This document shows positions 3,889 to 6,851 of a stretch of 21,531 nt of DNA, in pieces. The DNA is from a virus: the IMG/VR virus record IMGVR_UViG_3300028800_000338, positions 1-21,531 of that record. The stretch is one strand, 5' to 3'. The notes beneath the pieces were generated by a model, which ran no database searches, was not told the DNA's origin, and saw nothing but the letters and a program-made list of their open reading frames with translations. Position 1 is the stretch's first letter, and the number at the start of each line of letters is the position of its first letter. A program made the translations under genes and the position numbers.

Positions 3889-4757
3889 TATCTCACAAAA
3901 TCATTGATGCCCTGCGAGGCCATGACGACGGGCTACAGGTCCTAGTGGCACCTGGCTGCGACGCGAATCTCGCGCGGGTGACCCTGTCAGCTGCAATCGA
4001 GGGCGCCGCAAAATTTGATTTCGGGACGCTTGCTCTGATCAGCCGCGATGGCAGCGGGCAAACGTTCAAGTCTCCGGAGGTGGACGACGAAGAACTGGAG
4101 TGGTGGGCCGAAGGCTACATATCGCTACCATTCAAGACTGCGTGGTACGAATGGACCATCGGATCGGCGCGACATTGCGCGTTTCTCCAGGAGACGACAG
4201 AAGCGTGGTCTCTGATCTATCTCCAGCCTGACGATTTGGGGCGCTATTTATTGACGGGCCTTGTCGCAACTGCCAAGCGCGAGCGCGGAACCATCGTCAA
4301 TGGAAAAATTAAATATATGGTGACCGGCAATGTGGCCTTTGGCACCAGGTTCGAAAACGAATTCAAGCCACGGATCGGTTCGGCATTCGCATTAGCAATT
4401 TTCCTTACTCTCGGGATTCACAGCAAAAGTTCGCTTGTGAACAAAGAGGATGCTCCTGCCAAACTAAATCGAAAACGTGCTGAAAAAGGGCGCGCGCCGC
4501 TCCAAGCACACACCGTCGTGGACGTGTTTCCGAAAATCTTTTTCCGGTCCGATGGTCTCGGCACGCATGCCTCTCCGCGCCTGCACAAGCGCCGGTCGCA
4601 TCTGCGTCACTACAAACATCAAGTCCCGCGCGGCAAGTTGGTCGAAGATGGACCGCTGAAGGGAAGTTGGGCCGTGGTCATACCCTGGTGCTGGGTGGGG
4701 ATTGCTGATCGGGACTGCCCGCTAAGTCAGACATGGAGGGTGCATGTCGGTGACTGA
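3882..4757 (+). CDS. Phage-associated protein with HASPR-H-x-RR-x-HLR motif (291 aa)
   Basis: I chose the ATG at 3882; the frame stays open far upstream, but there it overlaps other genes. The C-terminal half has NRKRAEKGRAPL (197-206), then HTV, then HASPRLHKRRSHLR (229-242) and a final WRVHV. This block order occurs in uncharacterised proteins of prophages and other mobile elements, usually as NxKRxxxGKxPL plus HxSPRxHxRRGHxR; the biochemical role is unknown. The N-terminal half (about 1-180) is not recognised. Bases 4301-4480 are only about 46% G+C by hand count, well below the surroundings, and the gene follows a truncated reading frame, so it looks like a recent insertion. No good Shine-Dalgarno sequence is seen. 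Confidence 0.65.
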   Translation: MLISHKIIDALRGHDDGLQVLVAPGCDANLARVTLSAAIEGAAKFDFGTLALISRDGSGQTFKSPEVDDEELEWWAEGYISLPFKTAWYEWTIGSARHCAFLQETTEAWSLIYLQPDDLGRYLLTGLVATAKRERGTIVNGKIKYMVTGNVAFGTRFENEFKPRIGSAFALAIFLTLGIHSKSSLVNKEDAPAKLNRKRAEKGRAPLQAHTVVDVFPKIFFRSDGLGTHASPRLHKRRSHLRHYKHQVPRGKLVEDGPLKGSWAVVIPWCWVGIADRDCPLSQTWRVHVGD

Positions 4758-5004
4758 GAGACAGAAACCGTGGTCGAGACAACGCGGCGTGGAATTTAGG
4801 GCAGACCCGGATCGCGCCACAGAGCTGGCGCTACATCACTTGGTAATCGCGTCGGGGTTGCTGTACGCGGCATCTGACGAGATAACCTGCGAAAAGGTTA
4901 AGTCGCTGCTGCGCGCTACCTTCGAGCCGAACAGCCCGGCAGCGGCGGCTGCCCAAGCATTCGTTGATAAATGGTTTGCGGCGGCAGACGAGACGAACAC
5001 GTGA
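4744..5004 (+). CDS. Small hypothetical protein (86 aa)
   Basis: ATG at 4744 with a strong GGAGGG about 6 bases upstream; it overlaps the end of the preceding gene by 14 bases. The product is helical and Ala-rich (LALHHLVIASGLLYAASDE, then SPAAAAAQAFVDKWFAAADE), soluble, with no motif I recognise. Its stop overlaps the GTG start of the replication gene (GTGA), so the two are coupled. Confidence 0.6.
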   Translation: MSVTERQKPWSRQRGVEFRADPDRATELALHHLVIASGLLYAASDEITCEKVKSLLRATFEPNSPAAAAAQAFVDKWFAAADETNT

Positions 5005-6170
5005 TCATCCGCCGCCGCCATACCGCCAACTTCACGACGATCGGCAACCTGCTGTTCGAAGACGGACGGCTGGCCGCCGATGAAGTCGGCATATTGGCTT
5101 ACCTGCTGTCACGGCCGCACGATTGGGAGGTCCGTCGCCCGGCGCTGATGCGCCGCTGGGGCATCGGCCGCGACGCGCTCAAACGCGTGGTCGATAACTG
5201 GCTGCGGACCGGATGGGCGCGCGCGCAGAAGACGCGCCTGCCGAATGGCACGTTCGATATCGTTTACGAGATCCGGGATGAGCCGGGACCGTCACTCTCC
5301 GACGAAGAGGTCAGAAGGGCTTTGTCGCTGGTGTCCAGCGAGGCTGCGACTGACGAAATCGACGAAGAAACGAGTTCCGACCAGGGGCCGGTCATCCGCA
5401 CTCCACCCCCGGGTCAGCCAGGGGTGGCTGAGCCGCTACCGGCTGACCCGGGGGTGGCCAAGAAAGAATTACTAAAAACGGAATCACCAAGGACTGAATC
5501 TGACCAAATTGAGAGAGAGGCGGTCGGCTACGACAGGAAGGCAGCGTTCATCGCGGCCTTCGAAACACGCTGGCCCACCGCGGCAACCGACGATCGGGCG
5601 AGAACGGCAAAGGCGTGTCGTGACCTGCCCGACGATCAGGAAAACCCGGCGCTCAACGGCATCGGCGCGTTTCTCGAAAAACTCAAACGGGACGGGCGCA
5701 AAAATGTTCCGGCAGGCTGGCGCTATCTCGAGCAGCGGCCGTGGTCGCTTCTGCTGGAAGCCGCCAAGGCAGAGCCACAGAGCTTCGCGCCGCTGCCGGG
5801 AGGAAGCCCGCAGGCCAAGGCCGTCGAGATCATCTACGGCCTTTCCGGCAAGGCCTCTGCGGTCCACGGTTTCATGCGGCTGCGTGATCGTTCGATCGCC
5901 TATTCGCGCGAGGTGACGCCGCAATTGTTGGCGCTCGCCGACGCGCCCGACCAGCGCGAATGGCCCGTTCTCAACCGCCAGCAAGCCGGGGCCTGGAACG
6001 CAGTCATCGATCTTTACGTCGCCTTGGCAGCACACGGCCATCTGAAGGAGGGCGCTCATGCCCCCTGGCCATGGCCGCCATCGAAAGACGGCAAAATCTA
6101 CGCCGGCACAGGCCCACCGGACGGCGGCTGCAGCGACGACGACTTGGCCGAATTCACAAAAACAGGGTGA
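5001..6170 (+). CDS. Two-domain HTH phage replication protein (389 aa)
   Basis: I chose the GTG at 5001 because it forms a GTGA overlap and begins the recognisable family N-terminus, IIRRRHTANFTTIGNLLFEDGRLAADEVGILAYLLSRP; a longer in-frame start at 4971 lies inside the previous gene. Residues 15-75 form a winged-helix DNA-binding domain (LMRRWGIGRDALKRVVDNWLRTGW). Residues about 100-175 are a Pro/Glu-rich linker. The C-terminal half has WPTAATDDRARTAKA, then NGIGAFLEKLKRDGRKNVPAGWRYLEQRPW, typical of phage replication-initiator-like proteins. The linker DNA holds a 17-bp perfect inverted repeat and an A+T-rich stretch, suggesting the origin lies inside the gene as in lambda O. Initiator/helicase-loading function is inferred. 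Confidence 0.75.
   Translation: MIIRRRHTANFTTIGNLLFEDGRLAADEVGILAYLLSRPHDWEVRRPALMRRWGIGRDALKRVVDNWLRTGWARAQKTRLPNGTFDIVYEIRDEPGPSLSDEEVRRALSLVSSEAATDEIDEETSSDQGPVIRTPPPGQPGVAEPLPADPGVAKKELLKTESPRTESDQIEREAVGYDRKAAFIAAFETRWPTAATDDRARTAKACRDLPDDQENPALNGIGAFLEKLKRDGRKNVPAGWRYLEQRPWSLLLEAAKAEPQSFAPLPGGSPQAKAVEIIYGLSGKASAVHGFMRLRDRSIAYSREVTPQLLALADAPDQREWPVLNRQQAGAWNAVIDLYVALAAHGHLKEGAHAPWPWPPSKDGKIYAGTGPPDGGCSDDDLAEFTKTG
5403..5519. other. Candidate replication origin inside the replication gene
   Basis: Bases 5403-5419 (CCACCCCCGGGTCAGCC) are the exact reverse complement of 5441-5457. GGGGTGGC is also repeated directly at 5421-5428 and 5451-5458, and GGCTGA recurs inside the block. The next 60 or so bases (5458-5519) are A-rich, about 39% G+C by hand count, in an otherwise G+C-rich gene. 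Iteron-like repeats beside an A+T-rich unwinding segment, located in the linker between the two domains of the initiator gene, match the plan of the lambda-type origin. Confidence 0.5.
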
Positions 6171-6173
6171 GGC

Positions 6174-6851
6174 ATGAGCGACATGGGCATTGAGACCGGG
6201 ACCGAGACGGCAGAACGGCTGTTGGGCGTCATCCAGCGACGAGACGCGGAGCGCCGCCAGCGCAACACAGGCAGCCTCAACGATGTGAAGTGGTACGTGA
6301 CGCAGCGCTTCGGTCGGTCCGACAGGGCCATCCTCGATCTGTTCCAGGACTACAAGATCGAGACCTACTATCCGACGATACTCACGCTTCACCCGATCCC
6401 CCGCCGGCAGATGTCGGCAGCCCAGCGCAAGAGCGGCGTTTCGATATGCAAGCCGATGCCGGCGGCGCTTTTCCCCGGGTATATTTTCATGCACGTCGAT
6501 CGACGTGATGGTCGCATCCACGAGGTGTTTGAGCGCGGTCACGTCGGCGGTCTCGTCTGCCGCAACGGTGAGCCGGTGTGGATGCCCGACGAGATCATTG
6601 GGGCCATCAAATCACGGGAAAACGGCGACGGCGCCGTGCCCGGCAAGGAAACGATGCGGGCGGTCTTCAACATCGGTGACGAGGTGAGGGTCACGAATGG
6701 CCCGTTTGCATCGTTTCCGGGCATTGTCGAACTTGGGCTTGATGTTGGCATCGAAGAATTTGACCCAGAGACGCGGATTAAGGTAGCGGTCAATATCTTC
6801 GGCCGGCCGACACCGGTCGAGCTGGAAATCTGGCAGGTAGCCAAGCTGTGA
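6174..6851 (+). CDS. Phage NusG/RfaH-like transcription factor (225 aa)
   Basis: Residues 38-146 look like a NusG N-terminal (NGN) domain: WYVTQRFG, then YKIETYYPT and the signature LFPGYIFMHVD at 99-109. Residues about 165-225 form a KOW domain (FNIGDEVRVTNGPFASFPGIVE, then IKVAVNIFGRPTPVELE). Cellular NusG binds RNA polymerase through the NGN domain and couples to Rho or S10 through KOW; specialised paralogues such as RfaH act as antiterminators. A 37-residue N-terminal extension is unusual. ATG at 6174 with AGGGTGAGG upstream. It lies just before the repeats and terminator at 7095-7185 and the late genes, fitting a role as a late-gene antiterminator (inference). Confidence 0.88.
   Translation: MSDMGIETGTETAERLLGVIQRRDAERRQRNTGSLNDVKWYVTQRFGRSDRAILDLFQDYKIETYYPTILTLHPIPRRQMSAAQRKSGVSICKPMPAALFPGYIFMHVDRRDGRIHEVFERGHVGGLVCRNGEPVWMPDEIIGAIKSRENGDGAVPGKETMRAVFNIGDEVRVTNGPFASFPGIVELGLDVGIEEFDPETRIKVAVNIFGRPTPVELEIWQVAKL

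Follow-up and report, generated by a model that had tools for sequence, protein, structure and literature searches.

A putative iteron-type replication origin inside the initiator gene of an environmental phage

The region 5403–5518 of the window, which is the complete 21,531-base virus record IMGVR_UViG_3300028800_000338 (the record itself is probably a fragment), is very probably a phage replication origin that lies inside its own initiator gene, in the style of the iteron origins of lambda O and SPP1 gp38 (Table 1). Repeated dyad-symmetric sites occur in the initiator coding region between the DNA-binding and C-terminal domains, no 60-mer in the window is less stable than the adjoining A+T-rich element, and synonymous-site identity reveals conservation as DNA beyond that of the protein. 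A winged-helix fold is predicted for the N-terminal domain, and the type of repeat follows this domain among homologues. From these computed features we infer a mechanism in which dimers of the winged-helix protein (residues 1–111) would bind the three near-palindromic 15-bp iterons at 5408–5452, with CCACC/GGTGG arms flanking. The assembled initiator complex would strain and then melt the adjacent 60-bp A+T-rich stretch, and the C-terminal domain, tethered by a disordered linker that the origin DNA itself encodes, would recruit the loader of the replicative helicase or the helicase itself, so that the region could serve as an origin.

Origins of this kind are already known; the one proposed here comes from a distant family whose repeat sequence is its own, and the informative additions are its tandem palindromic iterons of 15 bp and the domain swaps seen in nature. 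It would place such an origin in environmental (probably alphaproteobacterial) phages and in rhizobial prophages, for which none was found described in the literature searched. It also suggests a usable rule for these winged-helix initiators, namely that the origin may be read from the gene as a linker iteron array followed by an A+T-rich element.

Table 1. Positions of the initiator gene, its encoded domains and the candidate origin elements in the window.
Feature	Position	Strand	Remarks
Replication initiator gene	5001–6170	+	389 aa; GTG start at 5001; homologues begin at the same residue
N-terminal winged-helix DNA-binding domain (predicted)	5001–5333	+	Residues 1–111; AlphaFold2 model and structural alignment
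Disordered Pro/Glu-rich linker (predicted)	5334–5495	+	Residues 112–165, pLDDT < 50; encodes most of the candidate origin
Iteron array	5403–5457		17-bp inverted-repeat arms 5403–5419 and 5441–5457 and all between
Iteron 1	5408–5422	+	Core 5411–5419, GGGTCAGCC
Iteron 2	5423–5437	+	Core 5426–5434, GGCTGAGCC
Iteron 3	5438–5452	+	Core 5441–5449, GGCTGACCC
Direct repeats GGGGTGGC	5421–5428, 5451–5458	+	30 bp (two units) apart; family D1
Candidate DNA-unwinding element	5459–5518		36.7% G+C; least stable 60-mer of the window
Tandem 15-mers ACTAAAAACGGAATC / ACCAAGGACTGAATC	5471–5500	+	Each ends in GANTC (5481–5485, 5496–5500)
TTGAGAGAGAG box	5509–5519	+	Right end; adjoins the start of the exchanged C-terminal module in relatives
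C-terminal domain	5520–6167	+	Exchanged among homologues: several unrelated C-termini on one N-domain class
NusG-like antiterminator gene	6174–6851	+	Directly 3′ of the initiator; Pfam NusG 6.6e-08, TIGR00922 6.9e-21

The iteron array and the A+T-rich stretch

The first-pass annotation described perfect 17-bp inverted repeats, and the arms CCACCCCCGGGTCAGCC (5403–5419) and GGCTGACCCGGGGGTGG (5441–5457) are indeed exact reverse complements that form the longest inverted repeat in the 21.5-kb window and exceed all chance nulls. When the gene was recoded synonymously 2000 times from its own set of codons, so that the protein stayed the same, perfect inverted repeats of up to 14 bp arose but none of 17 bp (0/2000); shuffling the window eight times under a first-order Markov model yielded none above 13 bp. 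The direct repeats GGGGTGGC reported at 5421 and 5451 are likewise present.

Comparison of the linkers among homologues shows that the inverted repeat arises secondarily, from three 15-bp units that are nearly palindromic and stand head to tail. The unit of class A, to which the window belongs, is a near-palindromic 15-mer (roughly TACGGGTNACCCGTA), with three head-to-tail copies and CCACC/GGTGG arms at the borders. Three GG[GC]TNA[GC]CC 9-mers spaced 15 bp apart arose in 0/2000 recodings, and the composite pattern GGSTNASCC-N6-GGSTNASCC has two overlapping occurrences in the window, at the array only (expected 0.00). With an iteron weight matrix derived from 19 phages and excluding the window, the best triple in the window scores 23.7 bits at 5408; the next non-overlapping hit scores 7.1–7.2 and the best of 20 shuffles 17.7. 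Taken alone, the window gives a non-significant 15-bp direct-repeat test (p 0.16) and a dyad p of 0.007; its signal resides in the dyad and the family comparison, not in single-sequence direct repeats.

The window's array is unusually symmetric, with an RNA fold of −52.7 kcal/mol (z −6.9), and a comparable z of −7.5 is found in phi3LM21. Such a strong transcript hairpin might attenuate transcription or stall translation, although we regard this account of the repeats as highly improbable. Not every homologue with 15-bp units retains a strong hairpin (z −0.5 in L003), and six of them (L002, L003, L004, L007, L009, and L010) have no inverted repeat of score ≥ 9. Moreover, no U-run follows the hairpin, no terminator-like site occurs at the array, and the A+T-rich repeats would be left unaccounted for.

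The tandem 15-mers of the window lie within the candidate unwinding element. The claim of some 60 A+T-rich bases in a G+C-rich gene holds, with 37.7% G+C at 5459–5519 vs 63.9% for the gene, and 5459–5518 ranks first among the window's 60-mers for both low G+C and low stability (nearest-neighbour energies). In 29/29 relatives tested, no 60-mer of the initiator gene is lower in G+C than the corresponding stretch, and in 15 of them this holds for the whole locus. Repeats related to the tandem 15-mers occur in five homologues (L008, L009, L012, L021, and L022), and the TTGAGAGAGAG box is common to the window, to L016, which has another N-domain, and to classes B and C. Many homologues (L004, L007, L009, L011, L016, L020, and L022) have a GCGCGCGC tract after the A+T-rich element or the GAGAGAG box; this tract is absent from the window.

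A strand-asymmetric TACTAA motif was found in 10/32 sequences, with its reverse complement in 0/32. We considered reading the TACTAA-type repeats as a DnaA-trio; the motif is strand-asymmetric, but nothing links it to DnaA. GC skew was dropped as an origin marker. The cumulative skew invoked by the first-pass annotation is uninformative, neither favouring nor opposing the origin: the window shows no switch near 5.4 kb, and in three complete relatives (phi3LM21, Rivra, and ppBdUSDA122-1) the extrema do not fall consistently at the initiator gene.

Conservation of the linker as DNA

The first-pass annotation proposed testing whether the repeats are more conserved as DNA than as protein, and the homologue alignment shows this for both the repeats and the A+T-rich stretch. 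Among ten class A proteins sharing one C-domain type, the N-domain, iterons, A+T-rich part, and C-domain have amino-acid identities of.75,.54,.60, and.50, respectively. The trend is opposite for third bases where the amino acid is identical, with.61,.86,.88, and.52 for the same four segments, and for four-fold sites (.59,.84,.79, and.47). The residue encoded in the middle of each iteron varies (Y/D/N/Q/E/H), with the codon shape xAx as the sole common feature, and L012 holds the A+T-rich repeats in a shifted reading frame (GVTKNGFTKDGIHQ, vs SLKTDSVKTESTN in L009). The higher synonymous-site identity, the xAx codons, and the L012 frame shift together indicate that selection acts on the DNA. 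Related arrays are present in the other 19 class A homologues, for example TACGGGTTACCCGTC GCTGGCTGACCCGTC GCCGGGTAACCCGTA in L001, though they are weak in L019, L024, and L025; the A+T-rich stretch is present in all.

These observations bear on a different explanation, in which the linker is a low-complexity, Pro-rich protein segment grown by slippage and the peptide repeats cause the DNA repeats. The 15-bp period does equal five codons, in frame, a P-x-x-x-P peptide periodicity is seen, and direct-repeat tests on single sequences often come out weak when compared with synonymous shuffles. However, synonymous sites in the linker are far more conserved than those of either domain, amino acids change while the second codon base stays, the A+T-rich repeats of L012 lie in the other frame, and the observed inverted repeat is not reached by synonymous recoding. 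We therefore give slippage only a very small chance of explaining the array.

The initiator protein, its domains, and its neighbours

An in-frame ATG at 4971 lies ahead of the GTG start of the initiator gene. The PHROG family phrog_4707, 'replication initiation protein', matches 22/22 aligned members, 'DnaD-like helicase loader' PHROGs match 10/22, and 'O-like' models match 2/22 (phrog_391 in 2/22, phrog_345 in 1/22). HTH_36 (PF13730) is found near cut-off in several relatives and is absent from the Pfam matches of the window protein. The predicted initiator is best placed in the broad HTH/PHROG group of phage replication initiators.

An AlphaFold2 model built with 22 homologues (mean pLDDT 77) predicts a confident winged helix at residues 1–95, disorder at 112–165, and a helical C-terminal part. 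The repeats were described as lying in the linker between the winged helix and the C-terminal part, and the segment of pLDDT < 50 (5334–5495) agrees. The nearest structures to the modelled winged helix are Geobacillus DnaB (Z 9.0) and RctB domain 1 (Z 8.6), followed by the N-domains of staphylococcal plasmid RepA proteins (Z 7.1–7.9) and DnaD (Z 6.9), and the six best rows of the structural alignment are replication-initiation proteins. Z scores of 8–9 are modest to middling. The alignment with RepA_N-like folds (4pt7, 4pql, 5kbj, and 4pta) extends over ~80 residues at Z 7.1–7.9, a range that is common. The winged helix fills the structural-alignment list, which gives no informative fold match for the C-terminal domain, and a sequence-profile search of the PDB gave chance hits only. 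The C-terminal domain may recruit replication proteins.

A winged-helix protein could also use the linker repeats as an operator, repressing or timing transcription of its own operon while replication starts elsewhere. MarR-type winged-helix proteins are weak Pfam neighbours of the window protein, a NusG-type antiterminator gene comes next, and sequence cannot tell binding sites from their function. Against this, positions 4700–6300 contain no promoter-like site, the PHROG and structural neighbours are replication proteins, and an operator need not adjoin an A+T-rich stretch that has repeats and synonymous-site constraint of its own. We consider an operator improbable.

Four N-domain groups were seen among ~90 collected homologues, including phage and plasmid records; neither the protein nor an alignment, when scanned against a collection of bacterial genomes, returned relatives. 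Class A, including the window, has the repeat TACGGGTNACCCGTA, and class B (phi3LM21, Rivra, and Sinorhizobium-type prophages) has CCGNCGNCGG, whose period is again 15 bp. This period is not universal, since the repeats of classes C and D are spaced at 17–24 bp. Class C (N-terminus SIAIMSQLFKAHLGSTNRKM) has GTGTCAC/GTGACAC units and the same C-domain as class B, whereas class D (L011, Bradyrhizobium phage ppBdUSDA122-1) has GGGTGCCC/GGGCACCC and a C-domain of the window's type. Homologues have exchanged their N- and C-terminal domains, and the sequence of the repeats tracks the N-terminal winged helix, not the C-domain. Repeat similarity averages 0.285 for pairs with the same N-domain and different C-domains (155 pairs), vs 0.072 for pairs with different N-domains and the same C-domain (52 pairs; background 0.088), and the partial Mantel r is 0.69 with the N-domain vs 0.26 with the C-domain. 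These values accord with the suggestion that the HTH protein binds the repeats. The repeats physically adjoin the N-domain, and linkage co-inheritance therefore also contributes to the association. In the natural swaps, every N-domain type goes with repeats of its own, which makes it possible to test how this group of initiators recognises DNA and may allow host-matched replicons for rhizobia.

The order of initiator and then NusG-like gene is common to the window, phi3LM21, Rivra, and plasmid pMl3; in phi3LM21 and pMl3 the order initiator–NusG–terminase is seen, and in Rivra initiator–NusG. No helicase-loader gene was recognised beside the initiator in the 21.5-kb fragment. Elsewhere in the window, the first 80 residues of the product of 1061–1714 match the nucleoid protein GapR/DUF2312 (NF010247 5e-15, NF052541 3e-11), fused to a longer tail; as GapR is an alphaproteobacterial nucleoid protein, an alphaproteobacterial host is suggested. 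The product of 1714–2616 is an AAA ATPase with a relationship to IteA, an anti-phage ATPase (NF042959 2.7e-44, under its cut-off; phrog_3757 1.3e-57); this gene was not found in related loci.

Known origins, GANTC sites, and distant initiators

In lambda and Stx phages, gene O carries the iterons and A+T-rich tract of the origin midway along its length (PMC7466680), and the window shares this arrangement of iterons mid initiator gene followed by an A+T-rich tract. The number of iterons differs, with three 15-bp head-to-tail units in the window, four in lambda, and six in Stx phages, and the next gene in the window, a 21.5-kb fragment, is NusG-like rather than a P-type loader. The first-pass annotation called the site a candidate 'lambda-O-type' origin. 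As a working principle this stands, and the window site probably works like lambda ori, with an initiator acting on repeats in its own gene, A+T-rich melting, and helicase recruitment by the C-domain. The window protein has no Pfam match to lambda O at E 0.1, and membership of the lambda O family is therefore not claimed.

In SPP1, oriL lies in gene 38, which encodes the replisome organizer gp38, and combines direct repeats with an A+T-rich unwinding element (PMC6316719). As with the putative initiator of the window, both lie inside the gene of the origin-binding protein; the hosts differ, and no loader or helicase genes are recognised alongside in the window fragment. RepA_N proteins have a winged-helix N-domain, bind semi-palindromic iterons, and carry a variable C-domain (PMC7145576). 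The plasmid and satellite RepA_N initiators of pSK41, pTZ2162, and PLE may resemble the window protein in an N-domain of the same general fold (Z 7.1–7.9 to the model), and they share with it semi-palindromic iterons and a variable C-domain. However, RepA_N (PF06970) is not among the Pfam hits of the window protein at E 0.1, and the PLE RepA origin is in a noncoding region (PMC7145576), whereas that of the window would lie in the gene. Further parallels are phi3LM21_p26, predicted to be a replication initiation protein (PMC5537653), and gene 64 of Agrobacterium phage Rivra. Both share with the window an HTH, a 15-bp-repeat linker, an A+T-rich stretch, a C-domain, and NusG next, but belong to another N-domain subfamily with the iteron CCGNCGNCGG. 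Neither 'iteron' nor 'origin of replication' occurs in the text of the phi3LM21 paper, which does report phage replication genes with GANTC methylase genes lying upstream of them (PMC5537653).

In the 75 bases after class A iterons, GANTC occurs at 22 per kb vs 2.0 per kb over the loci (~11-fold), often as two or three sites spaced ~15 bp apart. We speculate, while judging it unlikely, that the unwinding element is a methylation-sensed switch, in which clustered GANTC would be read as CcrM-methylated, hemi-methylated, or unmethylated DNA. Dam sites act comparably in the P1 origin. Such a switch would couple replication of the phage either to the cell cycle of its alphaproteobacterial host or to GANTC methylases encoded by phages. 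The GANTC methylases found close to the replication genes of such phages would then have a direct target. However, GANTC is absent from the class C unwinding element, though class C phages have MT-A70 genes, and from part of class B; it is present in a Burkholderia phage, and Asp/Glu-Ser codons readily produce it. We keep the methylation link only as a weak lead, which offers a concrete hypothesis for why GANTC methylase genes are carried near replication genes in such phages. MT-A70 or N6/N4 methylase genes are found in many relatives.

Eleven distant phage initiators from hosts in Burkholderia, Vibrio, Bacteroidota, Firmicutes, and Actinobacteria were also read, as a sample of hits and not a census. 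Most have direct repeats in the linker, often of 15 bp, followed by an A+T-rich stretch with TACTAA/TACTGA-like repeats. In L096–L106, which span several phyla, the TACTAA/TACTGA-like repeats of the A+T-rich element are strand-asymmetric and point away from the iterons. The LL-H record annotates its initiator as 'putative dnaA analog', followed by 'putative dnaC analog'. In Streptococcus phage IPP64 (L098, ~2350–2500), the initiator frame stops just before a perfect 15-bp repeat array, and the deposited replication protein ends at that stop; the array is intact and would encode VKLPC repeats if translated through.
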